Assembly (NCBI GenBank): GCA_021786845.1
Contig: JAJYMO010000067.1
Location: 1-46,727, forward strand
Direction: 5' to 3'
Source of the DNA: Pseudomonadota bacterium
GTDB taxonomy: Bacteria > Pseudomonadota > Gammaproteobacteria > Burkholderiales > Sulfuriferulaceae
Length of the DNA: 46,727 nt
Numbering within the stretch: position 1 is the first letter of the stretch; the number at the start of each line of letters is the position of its first letter. Of the stretch, positions 32,247-46,391 are shown piece after piece. Position numbers and translations under genes: made by a program. The notes under the pieces were generated by a model. The model saw only the letters and a list, made by a program, of their open reading frames with translations, searched no databases and was not told the DNA's origin.

Positions 32247-34232
32247 TTACAGCACGCTCTTGACAGCGTTGACTACGTTTTCGGTTGTGATGCCAAAGTG
32301 TTTGTAAAGATCGCTGGCCGGGGCCGATTCGCCAAAGGTATCCATGCCCACTACAGCACCTTCCAGCCCCACGTATTTGCGCCAAAAATCGGTCACACCG
32401 GCTTCAACCGCTACGCGAACGATGCCTTTTGGCAATACGCTGGCTCGATAAGCGGCATCCTGACGGTCAAAAACATTGTTGGAGGGCATAGACACGACAC
32501 GGGTAGCAATGCCTTGTTCAGCCAGGGCAGCATGGGCCTTCAATGCCAATTCGATTTCCGAGCCGGTTGAAATAATGATTGCCCGGAAGTTCTCCATGTC
32601 TTTCAATACATAAGCACCACGTGTGATGTTTTTAATTTGCGCATCAGTACGTGGCACAAAAGGCAGATTTTGCCGACTCAAAATAAAGCAGGTAGGTCCA
32701 TTCATGCGACCAACGCCCTGGCCCCAAGCCACAAGGGTTTCGACCGTGTCGCAAGGACGCCACACATCCATATTGGGAATCATACGCAAAGTGGAGGTTT
32801 GTTCTACAGGCTGGTGCGTAGGGCCATCCTCACCCAAACCGATGGAATCATGGGTAAACACGAAAAGAACGCGTTGGTGCATCAGGGCGGCCATACGCAA
32901 AGCATTGCGTGCATATTCCGAGAACATCAGGAAAGTACCGCCAAAAGGCAATACGCCGCCGTGCAGCGCCATACCATTCATAATGGCTGACATGCCAAAT
33001 TCACGCACACCGTAAGAAATGTAATTCCCAACAGAATTACCGCGTATTTGATGGCAGCCGGTCCAATTGGTCAGGTTAGAGCCTGTCAAATCGGCAGAAC
33101 CGCCCAGAAACTCAGGTAAAGCCGGTGCCAATGCGTTAATTGCAATTTGGGAGGCCTTACGCGTCGCCACGGTTTCGCCTTTGGCGTTAATGGCAGCAAT
33201 GGCCTGTGCAAGAAAAGCATCCCAGTTTGCCGGCAATTCGCCCGCCATACGACGGGTGAATTCAGCCGCTTCATCAGGATATGCCTCGGCGTAAGCAGAG
33301 AATTTGATATTCCACAGGCTTTCCAGCCCTGCCCCTTTAATGCGGCCATCCCAACCCGCGTAAACATCCGCCGGAATTTCAAACGAAGGGTGATGCCAGC
33401 CAATATTTTCGCGTGTTGCAGCAATTTCAGTCGCGCCCAAAGCCGCGCCATGCACGTCATGGGTGCCCTCTTTATTTGGAGAGCCCTTGCCAATGACGGT
33501 TTTGCAACAAATCAGGGTGGGCTTGTCTGTCACAGCCTTGGCAGCCTTCAGTGCAGCATCCACAGCCACAGGGTTATGTCCATCTACATCAGCGATCACA
33601 TGCCAGCCATAAGCCTCAAAACGCATGGGCGTGTTATCGGTAAACCACCCCTCAACATGACCATCAATAGAAATACCGTTGTCATCCCAGAACGCAACCA
33701 GTTTACCCAAACCCCATGTTCCCGCCAGTGCACAGGCTTCATGAGAAATGCCTTCCATCAGGCAGCCATCACCCAGAAACACATAAGTGTGATGATCAAC
33801 GATATCGTGACCGGGGCGATTAAATTCTGCCGCCAGCAATTTTTCGGTCATTGCCATACCAACCGCATTGGTCACGCCCTGGCCCAGTGGCCCAGTGGTG
33901 GTTTCCACGCCATCGGTGTAGCCATACTCCGGGTGTCCGGGGGTTTTGGAATGCAACTGACGGAAGCGCCTAATCTCTTCTATCGGCAAATTGTAACCTG
34001 TCAAATGCAGCAAAGCATAAAGCAGCATGGAACCATGTCCGTTGGACAGCACGAAACGATCACGGTCCACCCACTTAGGGTTAGAAGGATTGTGCCGCAT
34101 ATGGTGATTCCACAACACTTCAGCGATTTCAGCCATCCCCATGGGGGCGCCGGGGTGACCAGATTTGGCCTGCTCCACCGCATCCATTGCCAGCGCACGG
34201 ATCGCATTCGCGAGATCTTTACGAGTTGCCAT
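32247..34232 (-). CDS. tkt: Transketolase
   Basis: A 661-residue thiamine-diphosphate enzyme moving two-carbon units between sugar phosphates (pentose phosphate and Calvin cycles). It begins [22 protein letters not shown]; the cofactor motif [28 protein letters not shown] near the N-terminus and the [22 protein letters not shown] region of the pyrimidine domain are typical. The ATG at 34232 has AAGGA upstream and gives normal length; the 22-codon extension is not needed. First gene of the run. Confidence 0.96.
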
Positions 34233-34346
34233 ACTCAATATTCCTTGGAAGTATAAAAAAGTTTTTGTTGCCACAGACCGTGGTCCCACCAACACCACAC
34301 AACAACGCTATGGCAATACCACGCCAAATGACGACGTAAATGTATA

Positions 34347-39761: not shown

Positions 39762-42700
39762 CTACAACAGATTAAGTACTTTCCCATCTGTCTTCGCATC
39801 CTTCTGTACCAAATCAACCAGACAATTTAACAATGCCTGACTGGCCTCCCGGTTTTGTGGATCGGCGTGAACATGCTCATGCCAGTCCACGCTGTCTTGT
39901 AAATGGCGGGTCGCCAGGAATCGTGTCAAAGGACAATCCGCATAACTTTGCAGCTGCAAGGTCTTGTCATGAATTCTTTTCCAGTGATAGGCCAAAGCGC
40001 CAATCGACGTTTGAATCCGGTCAGGGATATAAGCCAGTTTAAAATTCTGCTGCCATACCAATAAATCCTGCGCCAACATAGGGTGCGCCAAACCATACCC
40101 CTGCCCATATGAGGCGCCCATCAGCGTAGCCGTTTCAATAAGATCGGCATTTTCCAGCCCCTCAATCACCACTTCGCAATCAAAATCCCGTCCCATTTGT
40201 ACGATAATGCTCAGCAAACTGAGGGTTTGAATGGGGTGCAAATAAATTTTGGCAAGTAAACTCTGATCCATCTTGATGCTGGTAAACCGGGTTTGGGAGA
40301 GGCGCTGCAGGCTGCTAAAGCCGGACCCAAGATCATCCATGGACATGCCCACGCCCAACTGGCGCAATTGCATGAAATGCTCGTCCTGCGTCGTGTGTTC
40401 GATTCGGTCTGTTTCCAGCAATTCGAGCGTCAAACGTTGCGGTGCTATCCCATGGTGACGCAATGCTGTTTCCACCCATTGCACACAATGTCCATCAAGT
40501 AAAGTGCCGGGAGGCAGGTTAACAGAAACGCCCACCAGGACACCCTGTCCCTCTAAAGCAGTCAAGATACTCAAAGCCTGATCCAAACCCAGACGAAACA
40601 ATTGATTCAATTCCACGCTACTCAACAAAGGCAGAAACACATTCGGCAAAACCACTTCGCCATCAGGCAGTTTCAATCGCGCCAAAGCTTCTACTTTGAC
40701 CAGCGCACCGGTATGCAAATTCACGATGGGTTGCACCAGCATCAGCAACCCGCCGGAAAACAATTGCTTGCGGTACATTGCGACCGTTTCCTGCGGCAAT
40801 GTCATCGTCAGCGGCTGGTTCGCCTGCCGCCACAGGGCGAACCAGCGCTGTTGTAATCCCAAAGTAAACTGGCGTGCCCAATGGGTAGAAAACTGATTCG
40901 GATAGCTGCCCTGGATCCCGAGTATGAAGCGGGTAATGCCATGCATGTCCACAACGGGTATCGTCACCATACTGCGTATCGACAAGGCGCGCAAACTTTC
41001 ATGCCAGGGACTGGTTTTCTGATCCTCAGCAAACGCCTCTGAGGTCATGATATGTCTACTGCGCCAAGCCGTGGCCACCAAACCTTGTCCCGCCGCCTGA
41101 TGCTCATCCAAAACTGGCGGTATCGCACGCACTGCTTCCCGGTATATTTCTGCGCCAGAACCGGCACTGGCTTCAACCATAAATACGCCTTGCACATCAG
41201 GACGCAGCACCTCGCATACGCGGACACCAGGCAGATCGGCAATGGCCTGCAATTCCATCTGCTGCAATTCCAGCCAGGGCAGGTTGCCTGGTGTACTTGT
41301 CCGCATCAACAGTTGTTGATAGGCTAACTGAGTGGCATCGCTGGCTTGCAATTCAATTTGGGTATCGTGCTGAATACGCGCATCAATCGTTTGAGCCAGG
41401 TAATAACGGTCTTGCGTGCGCAAAGGCACCGTCAGAAAGTGTTCATTCACCAGTTGGCGATACCGCGTACCGGCTTCCAGCAACGCGGCCCCATTGATAC
41501 CAACCAGGCTGTGCACCACACCCAGATGCTGCGCCCGCGCGGTGATCATTTCACGCGTGGTCTGAGGATTCAACAAAAAACAAACATGTTCAAACTGATG
41601 TGTTTTCAGCGCCTGCATCTCCGTTTCAGACAGCGTCTTTAATATGTTTTGGGTTTGCGGACTCAGTTCGGCATAAAAACGTTCGACAAATTGGCTGGTG
41701 ACACCATGGAGGTGGTCCTGCAGCTTATTCAACAAGTCAGTTGCCCCGGTGCCAAAAGGATCAAAAAGCTGCCCCTGTTTGGGCAATTCTTGTGGTGGTG
41801 CAGCGGCCATATTGCCCACACCGACTTGCCACCACTGTGTACGCTGGAGCTTGCGCAGTTTATTTTGGTACATCGCGGCATCAGCCTGGCGCAGCAGCGC
41901 ATCGGCTTCTTGCGCGTCATGCGGAAATAAGGCCAAACCTATGGTCATCCCCACCATCACCTGCGCCCCGGAATCCAGGGTGAAAGGAGATTCTACTGAT
42001 TGATGCAGACGGTTCATGCTCACGGCAATATCCGTCCCGATTTGCAAAGCATCAAGATCTTCCAGTACCACCACGAATTCATCGCCACCCAGGCGAGCAA
42101 TGAAATCGGACTCGCGCACGTCTGTGCGCATTCGTTGCGCAAATTCCCGCAACAACTGATCGCCAGCTTCATGGCCATACTGGTCATTCACCGGTTTAAA
42201 ATCATCGAGATCCAACAAACCCACTGCCAGCAGTTTATCGGCACGACGCATGCGTGCAAGGGCTTGCGGCAGATAATTTTCCAGCGCAAACCGGTTAGGC
42301 AAACCGGTCAATGAATCATGGCGTGCACGGTAGGCCTCTTCCGTTTGTAAGGTACTGAGCACGTGTTTGCGATCCAGTTCGTCCAGTCCATGGCCTAAAA
42401 AATCAGCCACGCGCCGGCACAGCTGTTGTGTTTCACTGTCAAATGCTTCGGCATGATCAGCCACAAAATCAATCACCGCCCACGGTTGGTCGCCACGCCA
42501 AACCGGGATCGCCAATGAAGACAACCAGCCTTGTGCACGCAAATAACTGTGCCAGGCAGCCATACGGGGGTCGGCAAGGTTGTCATGGTTATAGGCTATT
42601 TTGTGTTCTGCCCATGCCTGTGCCACCAGGGGCACATCGGTTAAAGTCAGATTGGTGAAGTGTTGCAAAGCGCTGGCACCTGCGCCCGCTTGCGCCAATA

Positions 42701-45194
42701 CGCTGATCGCGCCTTGTGCATCCGGTTGGCTAATCCACACCGCATGGAAAATATTATTCTGCGCGAGTTGAGTGCAGGTACTGGCCAGCATGTCAGCTTC
42801 GCCGCGCGATTGCAGCACCACATCACTTTGTGCCAGCAACGCCTGATACAACTGGCGTGTACGCTCCCGTGCCGTCACATCCTCTATCGTCCACACGGTC
42901 AGATTATCGTCTGCGCCCGACAACAGCGTACCCGACATGTCAACCAGCATCACCGTGCCATCCTGACGCATAAATTTCTGTGCGCTGACATGCGTGGAAC
43001 CCTGCTCCCGCAATATGTCATGCTGCTCACCAAAACGCTCGAATTCTGCCGTACTCGTAAAAAACAGACGCGTGTCACGCCCGCGCAAATCCTCTGCTGA
43101 AGCATAGCCCAACATCTTGGCATAATAGGCATTGCAACCCTGTATCACGCGCCGGCGCAACAAGATAATTCCCACCACCGAGCTGTTAAGCAAAGCATTT
43201 TGCACAGACCGGATCGCCAGCATATCCAAACCGTGCGACACATCGTCGACCAAATTTTGAAGCGTGGCTTTCAACTCGTCATCGTACAGATTTTCTTCGC
43301 CGTAAAATAAACTCAGCAATCCCCATATCTTGCCTTCGCGGTGCACAGGCAAGCATGTCGTGGCGGTTAAACCCGCGACCGATGCGCGTTCGCGCCACAA
43401 TGCCAAATAGGGCTCGGAATAGGATGCAGCGTAGATTGCCTGGTCTTCACGCCAGACACGCCCCATCCCGCCCTGGCCCTCTTTCAGCGCGGGATCAATG
43501 GAGATTTTCAAACCGTCCAGATAACCCACTGCGCCACTGGCTGCGGGGAAGTAAAATTGTCCTTGCGCATCAGGGCGAGCAAAACAAACCAGTTTGGCAG
43601 AGGTAAACTGAACAGCTAAATCACACAGCTGTTGTAAAAAACCGGATTCCTGGGTGGCATCCGCGATGGCTTGATTGGCCTCGGCCAGCAGCAAACGGAA
43701 CGCACTCAAGCGTTCAATGCGCGCAGCATTGGCCTGCAATGTCATGTGCTGAAACACCCGCATCAAGGCCAAGCCCAAAAATTGCACCAGTTGCGCCAGC
43801 AATTTCTGAATTTCCACCGTAAAATCATTCAGCGCGTTGGCGTAAACCACCAGCACGGCTACCGGAGTCGCCTGTGTCGCCATGACAACGGGGAAGGCCA
43901 TGGCGACATTTAACCCTGCCAATGCCGGGTGTGCTGCAATAATCAGCGAGCGCGCAGGGTTGCCATTCAAGTCTTCTGGACCGACAGGCCGGTTCTCGCG
44001 GAAGGCCCGGCTGGGTGGCATCGACGCATAGGGTTCATGCGTGCCGCTGCGCGAGAGCGTCAATTGCGCCAAAGCGTCACGCACATCTGCTTGTCCGGCA
44101 CCGACTGCCACCACCTTAAGCCACTCGGTGTCATTCTCGGGCACCGCCACAAACGCACTCCGTAAAGACGTATCAGTCACAATGGCTTCCACCAGATGCT
44201 GATACATCGCCTGCGGCTCATCCAGACTCATCAGCGCTTGCTGAATACGTAAAACGGCAGATTGATATTGCTGCAAGTTGTGCAGTTGCACATCAAGTCG
44301 CTTGCGAGCGCTGATATCGTGCTGCACCCCCACGTAATGTGTAATCTGACCTGTTGGGTTAAAAACCGGACTGATGCTCAATCTGTTCCAGAAAGGTGTG
44401 CCATCGTGACGGTAATTAAGAATTTCGCCCTGGAAGCAGGTGCCGTTTTGCAGTGCAGCACGAATTGCTGCCTGAGTTTCCACGCTGGTTTCCGCACCTT
44501 GCAATTGACAGAATTTTTTACCCAGCAAATCGTCCAGCGTATAACCGGTAAGCCGGGTAAACTCTGCATTGACAAACACCGTTTTCCGATGGGCATCAGT
44601 GATCAATACCCCTTCTGACAAGGCATTCAGGGCGCTGGCTTGTGAACGCGCCGCTTCGTCAAGCGCATCGCGCACCCACACTTTGCCGATCGCTGCAGCA
44701 ATGGTTTCCAACACGTCACACTGTTCGTCTGTAGGCATCCGGTGTACCCGGCTGGACAACGCGAACGTACCCATCACACGACCATGTGTATCTCGCACCG
44801 GCACCGACCAGCACGACATCATATTGAAATCAGCGGCGAGCAGCTTGAGTTGCTTCCATCGGGAATCGTTTAAGGTGTCCTCAACAAAAACGGGCTGATT
44901 TTGCACAATGACATTGCCGCAAGAACCTGATTCCAGGCCCGGCTGTAAATTGGCCAACCGGCGTTTCGCTTCGGCAGGAATGCTGGGCGCAGCATACACC
45001 TGCAACAAACCATTATCATCCAGGCACATGACAGAGGCCACTGTGTGTGGCAATATCTGCTCACCCAGCAGGCAGAATGCCTCAATCACCTTGCGCGCAT
45101 CTCGCTCGGTAAAAAAAAATTCGTAAATACGGTGACGCAAATCAGTCAGCGTGTTGATGGGTGGTTTATCCAAAATAAGACACCTGATAGTCAT
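39762..45194 (-). CDS. Giant c-di-GMP sensor enzyme: GAF/PAS/GGDEF/globin-like/GAF/EAL
   Basis: 1810 residues, soluble, no membrane segment. Order by motif reading: GAF (30-170), PAS (185-300), GAF (325-480), GAF (500-660), PAS (665-780), GAF (790-940), GGDEF (955-1120), globin-like sensor (1145-1285), GAF (1295-1455), EAL (1465-1715), His/Cys tail (1730-1800). The cyclase site GGDEF is at 1036-1040 with the inhibitory I-site RESD at 1027-1030. The EAL domain keeps VEALARL (1501-1507), SVNLP, LELLET, the MDDLGSG pair, IKMDQ and VIEGLE, so both synthesis and hydrolysis look possible. Globin-like candidate haem ligand is His1228. Start uncertain: no good ribosome binding site before the ATG. 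A membrane diguanylate cyclase lies 33 bases upstream on the same strand. Domain edges are estimates. Confidence 0.9.
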   Translation of the reverse strand: MTIRCLILDKPPINTLTDLRHRIYEFFFTERDARKVIEAFCLLGEQILPHTVASVMCLDDNGLLQVYAAPSIPAEAKRRLANLQPGLESGSCGNVIVQNQPVFVEDTLNDSRWKQLKLLAADFNMMSCWSVPVRDTHGRVMGTFALSSRVHRMPTDEQCDVLETIAAAIGKVWVRDALDEAARSQASALNALSEGVLITDAHRKTVFVNAEFTRLTGYTLDDLLGKKFCQLQGAETSVETQAAIRAALQNGTCFQGEILNYRHDGTPFWNRLSISPVFNPTGQITHYVGVQHDISARKRLDVQLHNLQQYQSAVLRIQQALMSLDEPQAMYQHLVEAIVTDTSLRSAFVAVPENDTEWLKVVAVGAGQADVRDALAQLTLSRSGTHEPYASMPPSRAFRENRPVGPEDLNGNPARSLIIAAHPALAGLNVAMAFPVVMATQATPVAVLVVYANALNDFTVEIQKLLAQLVQFLGLALMRVFQHMTLQANAARIERLSAFRLLLAEANQAIADATQESGFLQQLCDLAVQFTSAKLVCFARPDAQGQFYFPAASGAVGYLDGLKISIDPALKEGQGGMGRVWREDQAIYAASYSEPYLALWRERASVAGLTATTCLPVHREGKIWGLLSLFYGEENLYDDELKATLQNLVDDVSHGLDMLAIRSVQNALLNSSVVGIILLRRRVIQGCNAYYAKMLGYASAEDLRGRDTRLFFTSTAEFERFGEQHDILREQGSTHVSAQKFMRQDGTVMLVDMSGTLLSGADDNLTVWTIEDVTARERTRQLYQALLAQSDVVLQSRGEADMLASTCTQLAQNNIFHAVWISQPDAQGAISVLAQAGAGASALQHFTNLTLTDVPLVAQAWAEHKIAYNHDNLADPRMAAWHSYLRAQGWLSSLAIPVWRGDQPWAVIDFVADHAEAFDSETQQLCRRVADFLGHGLDELDRKHVLSTLQTEEAYRARHDSLTGLPNRFALENYLPQALARMRRADKLLAVGLLDLDDFKPVNDQYGHEAGDQLLREFAQRMRTDVRESDFIARLGGDEFVVVLEDLDALQIGTDIAVSMNRLHQSVESPFTLDSGAQVMVGMTIGLALFPHDAQEADALLRQADAAMYQNKLRKLQRTQWWQVGVGNMAAAPPQELPKQGQLFDPFGTGATDLLNKLQDHLHGVTSQFVERFYAELSPQTQNILKTLSETEMQALKTHQFEHVCFLLNPQTTREMITARAQHLGVVHSLVGINGAALLEAGTRYRQLVNEHFLTVPLRTQDRYYLAQTIDARIQHDTQIELQASDATQLAYQQLLMRTSTPGNLPWLELQQMELQAIADLPGVRVCEVLRPDVQGVFMVEASAGSGAEIYREAVRAIPPVLDEHQAAGQGLVATAWRSRHIMTSEAFAEDQKTSPWHESLRALSIRSMVTIPVVDMHGITRFILGIQGSYPNQFSTHWARQFTLGLQQRWFALWRQANQPLTMTLPQETVAMYRKQLFSGGLLMLVQPIVNLHTGALVKVEALARLKLPDGEVVLPNVFLPLLSSVELNQLFRLGLDQALSILTALEGQGVLVGVSVNLPPGTLLDGHCVQWVETALRHHGIAPQRLTLELLETDRIEHTTQDEHFMQLRQLGVGMSMDDLGSGFSSLQRLSQTRFTSIKMDQSLLAKIYLHPIQTLSLLSIIVQMGRDFDCEVVIEGLENADLIETATLMGASYGQGYGLAHPMLAQDLLVWQQNFKLAYIPDRIQTSIGALAYHWKRIHDKTLQLQSYADCPLTRFLATRHLQDSVDWHEHVHADPQNREASQALLNCLVDLVQKDAKTDGKVLNLL

Positions 45195-45227: not shown

Positions 45228-46376
45228 TTACTGAGACATCATTTTCGCCTTGCCGGACTCTTTTGCATGATACATGCGTGTATCGGCCAAATTGACTAAT
45301 TCCTGCCAGTCATGAACCGAATCTCGCGGCCATTGAGCAAGGCCACCGCTCCACGTCAGGGGCGTCCCGTCCGGGCGTTGCAAAATACGGCTGCGCGTGA
45401 TATCAGTCAGCCGTTTTTCTGCCTGCTCCAGTGTGGCATAAGGCATGACAATGAGAAATTCTTCCCCCCCCCAACGGATCAACACATCCCCATCACGCAC
45501 TGCCGATTGCAATTGATCAGCAACATGCAAAAGAATCGCGTCGCCCATCTCATGGCCATAGAGGTCGTTGATCATTTTAAAGTTATCCAAATCGATAAAA
45601 GCAAGGGTCAACGGAAATTTTTGCCTTTTGGCCTGGGCCAGCTGCAACTGTAAAAATTGTTCTCCACTGCGCCGATTGAGCAACCGGGTCAGCGGATCCA
45701 CAGAGGATCGCTTGAACAAGCTTTTCATGAGCTGTAGCTGACTCAGGGAAGCCATGCTGCTTACCGCAGAAATCAACAAAAGCAACCAAAAAACAACGAG
45801 ATCATTCAGGCCCGGCAGGATGCCATGCCCATGCACGAACTCGGAAATAAGGAACACAACCAGCATGGGCACGCTGAAAAGCATCGTTTCCAGTGCCACA
45901 AAAGGGAAAAGCGCCAAACCGGTGGCCAAAACGAAAGGAAGAAAAGTATAACCCGATGCCAGGGCCGTACCGAATGCATTCAGTTGTACCCCGGCAAGCA
46001 GCCAGCGGCTAAAAAGAAAAAAACTGGTGGGAACCGCCAAAAGGATGCCGACAGCGAGACGGGCGTTGCCCATTTTCGGACCACAACGACAAAAAATGGC
46101 CAAAAACGCAAACAGGATGGTCGCAACAATGCGGCCTCCCGCCAAAAAAAAAGCCACTTTCCCAGGGAAAACGCTAAAATCAATTGCCATCCACAACGGG
46201 GTCAGGACGGCAAAAACAGCCGCCATCATTCGTACCCGGGAAAGGATAAAACGCGCGCGGTAATGAGAAAACAACGCTGAATGCCGTGTACTGCTCAAAA
46301 AATCCCGTAATTCTCCCGGCCCAACAAAAAAGAATTGGCCCAATTGGATTTTAACGTATGCCAAAAAAGCCATCAT
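45228..46376 (-). CDS. Membrane diguanylate cyclase (GGDEF)
   Basis: A 382-residue protein with an N-terminal block of about six membrane helices (about residues 45-215) and a C-terminal GGDEF domain. The active site is RWGGEEF (GGEEF at 303-307) and the inhibitory I-site RDGD lies at 294-297, exactly five residues before it; SSVDPLTRLLNRR and FIDLDNFKMINDLYGHEMGD are intact. It should make c-di-GMP at the membrane under product inhibition. The ATG at 46376 has a GGAG nine bases ahead; an in-frame ATG five codons upstream (46391) has none. Same strand and only 33 bases from the giant gene, so probably co-transcribed. Confidence 0.9.
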   Translation of the reverse strand: MMAFLAYVKIQLGQFFFVGPGELRDFLSSTRHSALFSHYRARFILSRVRMMAAVFAVLTPLWMAIDFSVFPGKVAFFLAGGRIVATILFAFLAIFCRCGPKMGNARLAVGILLAVPTSFFLFSRWLLAGVQLNAFGTALASGYTFLPFVLATGLALFPFVALETMLFSVPMLVVFLISEFVHGHGILPGLNDLVVFWLLLLISAVSSMASLSQLQLMKSLFKRSSVDPLTRLLNRRSGEQFLQLQLAQAKRQKFPLTLAFIDLDNFKMINDLYGHEMGDAILLHVADQLQSAVRDGDVLIRWGGEEFLIVMPYATLEQAEKRLTDITRSRILQRPDGTPLTWSGGLAQWPRDSVHDWQELVNLADTRMYHAKESGKAKMMSQ

Positions 46377-46391
46377 GTGGAATTGCTCCAT

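Follow-up and report, generated by a model that had tools for sequence, protein, structure and literature searches.

The window, by which we mean the whole stretch of 46,727 nucleotides that was analysed, contains a minus-strand open reading frame for a multidomain protein of 1810 residues, whose length and coordinates (Table 1) agree with those of a first-pass annotation made from the letters alone. The position of the start codon is known only to within about 7 codons, as the alignment to the 87%-identical orthologue in a related genome (G008) begins at residue 8. Over 1806 codons, the dN/dS ratio between the window gene and this orthologue is 0.135; the gene is under purifying selection, and the reading frame is therefore no chance frame. 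The hydropathy profile has weak peaks only, all within GAF2 (maximum 1.83), so that the earlier description of the protein as soluble is plausible. The source genome (2.19 Mb) has 16 EAL and 22 GGDEF matches; three of the 16 EAL matches lie in frames of more than 1200 aa, and the present frame is the longest of them.

A second gene, encoding a membrane diguanylate cyclase of 387 aa, lies upstream in the same orientation at a distance of 33 nt, and from this spacing the two genes are likely co-transcribed. Both genes also stand together in the orthologous locus L029, whose upstream cyclase shares 375 of 387 residues with that of the window. The remaining neighbours are house-keeping-like and include glnS, SixA, a Nudix enzyme of the dihydroneopterin-triphosphate type, a TRAP substrate-binding protein, malic enzyme, transketolase, GAPDH and PGK. 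The transketolase occupies 32247-34298 in the window; transketolase-like frames, recognised by their first residues, also lie a few kb from the related gene in L031 (13973-15961; G094) and L032 (200-2188; G050), and the neighbourhood is possibly common to these genomes. Across the locus, Rfam at gathering scores matched no RNA element, promoter-like sites number 2 (6.6 in shuffled sequences), and terminator-like sites number 12 (10.1 in shuffled sequences, standard deviation 3.3).

Divergence from the orthologue is uneven along the gene. Over positions 39765-45194, nucleotide identity in successive stretches is 72-89% for roughly the first 760 residues, rises to 86-97% as far as about residue 1720 and drops again in the tail; synonymous divergence is 0.54-1.33 from GAF1 to PAS2 and 0.23-0.42 from GAF4 to EAL. 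This contrast suggests that the middle part of the gene has recombined. The source genome also encodes a 1403-aa paralogue (L040:5547-9758, contig C51) with four PAS and two GAF stretches, a GGDEF and an EAL domain, and no globin listed.

Table 1. Features of the 1810-residue protein, its gene and the adjacent cyclase gene; positions refer to the window.
Feature	Position	Strand	Residues	Details
Whole ORF	39762..45194	-		1810 aa, ATG start; GAF-PAS(LOV-like)-GAF-GAF-PAS-GAF-GGDEF-globin-GAF-EAL-tail
GAF1	44685..45098	-	33-170	Pfam GAF_2 58.6 bits
PAS1, LOV-like	44295..44633	-	188-300 (Pfam 194-295)	Pfam PAS_9 78.1 bits; PDB sequence matches
Altered LOV adduct motif GKKFCQLQG	44496..44522	-	225-233	orthologue GKNCRLLQG
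GAF2	43764..44216	-	327-477	Pfam GAF_2 38.3 bits
GAF3	43227..43649	-	516-656	Pfam GAF_2 57.9 bits
PAS2	42885..43196	-	667-770	Pfam PAS 26.2 bits, cut-off 22.6
GAF4	42387..42803	-	798-936	Pfam GAF_2 44.1 bits
GGDEF diguanylate cyclase domain	41850..42326	-	957-1115	Pfam 145.6 bits; PDB matches TpbB, PleD, others
Linker, predicted flexible	41784..41849	-	1116-1137	poorly conserved; low model confidence
Globin, sensor type	41325..41783	-	1138-1290	proximal His1228, distal Tyr1174; Pfam match 1149-1280
GAF5	40839..41252	-	1315-1452	between globin and EAL; Pfam GAF_2 28.8 bits, cut-off 28.6
EAL phosphodiesterase domain	40080..40772	-	1475-1705	Pfam 156.4 bits; alignment to EAL structures
C-terminal tail	39765..40061	-	1712-1810	GALxxHW...CPLxxFL...WHxxxH
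Membrane diguanylate cyclase	45228..46391	-		387 aa (GGEEF, RDGD); Pfam GGDEF 139.7 bits; hydrophobic N-terminal half

Domain architecture and catalytic domains

Pfam scans of the whole protein and of eight separate segments recover the five GAF and two PAS domains that had been read from motifs, and all five GAF_2 matches exceed the cut-off of 28.6 bits. The previous count of about ten modules was right for the GAF, PAS, GGDEF and EAL domains that it listed, and it lacked two further parts of the protein, the globin domain and the C-terminal tail.

In an alignment to TpbB, the GGDEF active site (residues 1036-1040) and the I-site RESD (1027-1030) are both intact, each at the position previously assigned. 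Similarly, an alignment to EAL structures, the EAL domain of DosP among them, finds E1502, N1559, E1591, D1620, D1621, K1641, E1678 and Q1698 kept, which we take to be the residues that act in catalysis; the EAL core is thus intact, as had been noted. Relative to the orthologue, EAL is the most constrained domain of the protein (dN/dS 0.066), and the GGDEF domain has a dN/dS of 0.146 and is 93% identical. Overall, the Pfam and motif checks support the earlier picture of many sensors attached to a tandem GGDEF-EAL pair with intact motifs, and the protein probably both makes and destroys c-di-GMP, a messenger in biofilm formation. Conserved motifs are no guarantee that both halves are active.

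A globin domain between GGDEF and EAL

On the globin segment alone, the Pfam Protoglobin family scores 26.8 bits, above its cut-off of 25; when the full-length protein is scanned, the score is 21.9 bits, below the cut-off. Full-length scans of 23 relatives with the globin module put 12 over the cut-off, at 28.2 to 52.7 bits, and leave 11 below it or unlisted. A structural model of the segment, calculated from a 59-row alignment, has a pLDDT of 93.8, and its top 13 matches by VIA-align are bacterial sensor-type entries (Z 15.4-16.3, rmsd 1.8-2.7 over 137-143 residues); the next globins follow at a Z of 13.5. The sensor-type entries matched are HemAT, DosC, BpeGReg, AfGcHK and those of Geobacter and Thermosynechococcus, and the entry 8h17 is presumably a sensor globin as well. 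Foldseek E-values for the same model are weak, the best being 0.0039, to HemAT. At the level of sequence profiles, the 59 rows, conventional sensors included, match HemAT at 3.1e-16, and a profile restricted to the 11 closest rows matches HemAT at 0.0013, with no other match at 0.1.

In the alignment, His1228 stands at the proximal place and Tyr1174 at the distal place; we take a proximal His (F8) and a distal Tyr (B10) to be the characteristic residues of globin-coupled sensors. The domain would accordingly be expected to bind haem and oxygen, and judged from its sequence it probably lets oxygen control the EAL half. Oxygen had been proposed before as one of several inputs, and a globin with the expected His and Tyr between the catalytic halves gives that proposal a better foundation.

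The domain does not occupy the N-terminal position that is usual for globin-coupled sensors: 1137 residues, with six sensors and the GGDEF domain, precede it, and EAL follows. In a separate model of the C-terminal half, which has a pTM of 0.55, a helix of 37 residues ends the globin and leads to GAF5, and model residues 1-23 (protein residues 1120-1142) have a pLDDT below 50; coupling between the domains is not visible in this model.

A LOV-like PAS domain without the photoactive cysteine

The matches of PAS1 among PDB sequences start at 1e-24, and most of the best ones are, we assume, LOV domains. In particular, PAS1 is similar to 6rhg (1e-24; presumably CagFbFP) and 8c05 (1.9e-22; presumably a LOV-cyclase), yet it lacks a Cys at the adduct place; 3ewk, which we take to be an FAD redox sensor PAS, is about as good a match (6.3e-24). 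The NCBIfam model YtvA_fam scores 100.7 bits on the window protein, below its cut-off of 250. The photoactive Cys of LOV domains belongs to the motif GXNCRFLQ; in the window PAS1, a Phe stands at its place, a Cys comes one residue later, and the adjacent Arg, to which we ascribe a functional role, is also lost.

The orthologue motif (GKNCRLLQG) is canonical and keeps this Cys. Between the two proteins, four codons in succession differ, each by one non-synonymous base substitution. The changes involve no indels, which disfavours a frameshift or a sequencing error as their cause. No other run of differences in the 1806-residue alignment is as long as this one, which lies in a domain that is 81% identical; a run of four differences anywhere occurs in 3538 of 10000 shuffles, and the probability that all four motif sites change at the PAS1 rate is about 0.001, for sites that were named after being seen. 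The motifs of relatives were read from a phmmer search; of two regular-expression searches for LOV motifs, one gave none and the other the window alone. Within the same family, L090, L091 and L096 have GRNCNFLQG, and in L033 the Cys is likewise gone, with an Ala instead; the first PAS of the source-genome paralogue L040 is also LOV-like and keeps its Cys (GKRCHVLQG). Most simply, the Cys-less state of the window protein would be a derived one.

In L090, L091 and L096, a single GGDEF-EAL protein carries both a canonical LOV motif and a globin, which would bring light and gas sensing together. The earlier suggestion of redox state as an input for the window protein finds only indirect support in the LOV-like character of PAS1, whose photoactive Cys is gone. 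LOV proteins that lack the Cys may nevertheless signal via flavin photoreduction (PMC4682037, PMC5645311).

The C-terminal tail

The tail was aligned across 19 proteins, namely the window protein and 18 relatives with more than 30 bits in a tail profile built for this analysis; the Cys is invariant across these score-selected tails, and several other relatives (e.g. L100, L103, L105, L127 and L129 to L132) have no match to the profile. The order of C1754 followed by HxxxH at 1772/1776 resembles the metal motif of CZB domains (H...C...HxxxH), and the comparison of tail and CZB profiles gives a probability of about 1%. This comparison used domains from 10 of 30 CZB loci against the 19 tails, after L163, L145, L154, L150 and L144, among the first 15 loci, had been dropped for stops or for lying on the wrong strand. 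CZB is unlisted among the Pfam families for the 19 tails at an E-value of 10, and has two matches elsewhere in the source genome. The window tail itself matches no Pfam family at an E-value of 10, and the tail profile matches no PDB chain at an E-value of 5. The commonest Pfam match, EAD7, occurs in 3 of the 19 tails (best E 0.0068) and was taken as chance.

The family across genomes

At an E-value of 0.001, the 11-row globin profile matches 47 of 399 genomes drawn from the order, 35 of 369 from the class and 19 of 398 from the phylum, with the source genome counted in each draw; apart from it, the best match in the phylum draw is 3.5e-9. Among 100 related genomes, 96 match the 1810-residue query, and G034, G057, G060 and G082 are without any match. 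A scan of genome contigs gave 13 loci, one of which (L043) is that of G008, and the other 12 align over GGDEF or GGDEF-EAL only.

Sorted by domain order, 64 globin proteins, chosen mostly by score, comprise 39 with GGDEF-globin-EAL, nine with the conventional globin-GGDEF-EAL, three without EAL, and 13 that have globin and EAL and in which the profile used here recognised no GGDEF. The 39 are spread over ten family codes (f1, f20, f28, f34, f42, f177, f198, f201, f206 and f208). Their lengths extend from 783 aa to the 1810 aa of the window protein, and contig ends or stops truncate some of them. Twelve of the 13 proteins without GGDEF are 632-761 aa long with the globin at the N-terminus (L036, L038 and L039 are among the GGDEF-less proteins), and the thirteenth, L135, has 1089 aa and its globin at 406-550.

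The catalytic motifs are widely kept in the GGDEF-globin-EAL proteins, with ExL in all 39, DDxG in 38 and GG[DE]EF in 35; the four exceptions to the last are EGDEF (twice), SGDEF (once) and one cut-down domain. The proximal His is present in 34 of the 39, in 11 of the 13 proteins without recognised GGDEF and in all nine conventional ones; the corresponding numbers for the distal Tyr are 29, 11 and eight. The globin domain can thus persist without haem, because the proximal His is lost in 5 of the 39 and the distal Tyr in 10. One GGDEF-globin-EAL relative, L089:2818-5784 (G229; 988 aa), has a frame that stops inside EAL and is perhaps decayed or frameshifted.

A tree of globin plus EAL was built from 60 rows, which are the 61 proteins with both domains minus L089, whose EAL is cut short by its stop. 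One branch (support 95/83) separates 51 GGDEF-globin-EAL and GGDEF-less rows from the nine conventional globin-GGDEF-EAL rows, and the window protein falls within a set of 28 rows (support 100/95). The three architecture labels require 4 changes on the tree, and 20.1 when they are shuffled. Taken by itself, the GGDEF-globin-EAL order does not form a single clade; at least 2 of the 3 changes that it requires are forced by well-supported branches, and several end branches are long. By this tree, the order may have had more than one origin or undergone losses. In searches of open-access papers, a scope outside which most subscription journals lie, we recognised no description of a globin between GGDEF and EAL; within open-access work on c-di-GMP in Sulfuriferula, we likewise recognised nothing on such an arrangement.

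Discussion

Parts of this architecture have counterparts in characterised proteins. The globins of DosC and BpeGReg have the same fold as the window globin (Z 15.4-16.0). However, these two proteins and the GCS-HD-GYP of Vibrio fluvialis differ in having an N-terminal globin and a single enzyme domain (HD-GYP or GGDEF), and we know of no GAF/PAS array in any of the three. E. coli DosP (9cmf, 9cdr) and PA0861 (PAS-GGDEF-EAL, 5xgb) are PAS-controlled GGDEF-EAL proteins and sequence matches of the window protein, with far fewer sensors than it has; the sensor of DosP is presumably a haem-PAS rather than a globin. In DcpG of Paenibacillus dendritiformis, the globin reportedly precedes the enzyme pair, whereas the window globin lies between GGDEF and EAL with a GAF domain of its own, and six further GAF and PAS domains stand before GGDEF. 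DcpG likewise combines a sensor globin, a cyclase and an EAL domain in one chain under gas control, and GCS-HD-GYP is a globin-coupled phosphodiesterase, as we propose for the C-terminal half of the window protein (both PMC10882959). Further, Table 2 of PMC6416229 counts, among Acidithiobacillus GGDEF-EAL proteins, 80 with Protoglobin and 62 with CZB, and the paper also names a GCS-EAL. These proteins, such as AFE_1712, are like the window protein in coming from acidophilic sulfur or iron oxidisers; the order named there, Protoglobin-GGDEF-EAL-CZB, is unlike that of the window protein, a distinction that follows the names in that text, and the tail of the window protein is not recognised as CZB.

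We favour, with moderate confidence, a bifunctional c-di-GMP enzyme built from two modules under separate control, a cyclase governed by GAF and PAS domains and a phosphodiesterase governed by oxygen. The N-terminal module would be a diguanylate cyclase that takes its signals from four GAF and two PAS domains, with the I-site providing product inhibition; the C-terminal module would be a globin-coupled c-di-GMP phosphodiesterase, and a flexible linker would join the two. Gas bound at the haem would act through the long last helix of the globin on GAF5 and from there on EAL, so that the c-di-GMP level would depend on oxygen through breakdown and on several further signals through synthesis. Haem and oxygen binding are predictions here, as are the two enzyme activities with their direction and the autonomy of each half. 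Independent steering is favoured because the linker is unconserved and modelled with low confidence and because short globin-EAL proteins exist. For the latter reason too, two halves under separate control appear more likely than the first-pass notion of one enzyme that chooses between synthesis and hydrolysis.

Alternatively, the globin could steer both halves in opposite senses, so that a single gas signal switches between synthesis and breakdown. DcpG offers a precedent, as it has both activities and oxygen favours its EAL while NO favours its GGDEF (PMC10882959), and a globin between GGDEF and EAL adjoins both in sequence. However, sensor globins signal via a C-terminal coiled coil (PMC8846402), which here leads to EAL; the GGDEF side is joined to the globin by the unconserved, low-confidence linker, and the conventional globin-GGDEF-EAL proteins branch apart on the tree. 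We therefore regard shared control as unlikely. It is quite unlikely that the protein is mainly a phosphodiesterase or a c-di-GMP-responsive scaffold, in which GGDEF only senses GTP or c-di-GMP on behalf of EAL and several sensors are vestigial. The four family members without GG[DE]EF, the stronger constraint on EAL than on GGDEF and the separate membrane cyclase just upstream are consistent with this reading, but in the window protein the GGDEF motif and I-site are intact and the domain is strongly conserved in the orthologue. Finally, this could be an ordinary multi-sensor GGDEF-EAL protein whose globin and LOV-like domains are cofactor-free dimerisation spacers; some relatives lack the proximal His, and the window LOV motif lacks both the Cys and the adjacent Arg. 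The retention of His1228 and Tyr1174 in the window protein argues against this last explanation, which we consider highly improbable.

Beyond the two-module reading, we advance a broader proposal tentatively, with more doubt than belief: GGDEF-globin-GAF-EAL-tail proteins could form an undescribed split-control family, in which haem signals to the phosphodiesterase half only and LOV and haem sensing are combined in one chain, and in the window species the LOV domain could, through the shift of its reactive Cys, have given up photochemistry in favour of flavin redox sensing. The window protein and its orthologue form a natural experiment on LOV domains, with four consecutive differences placed exactly on the photochemical motif. 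The internal globin is of more interest than the size of the 1810-residue protein. Futile cycling in tandem GGDEF-EAL proteins is a standing question, and a haem-type sensor placed between the opposing domains, together with the existence of free-standing globin-EAL proteins, makes this question testable by truncation.
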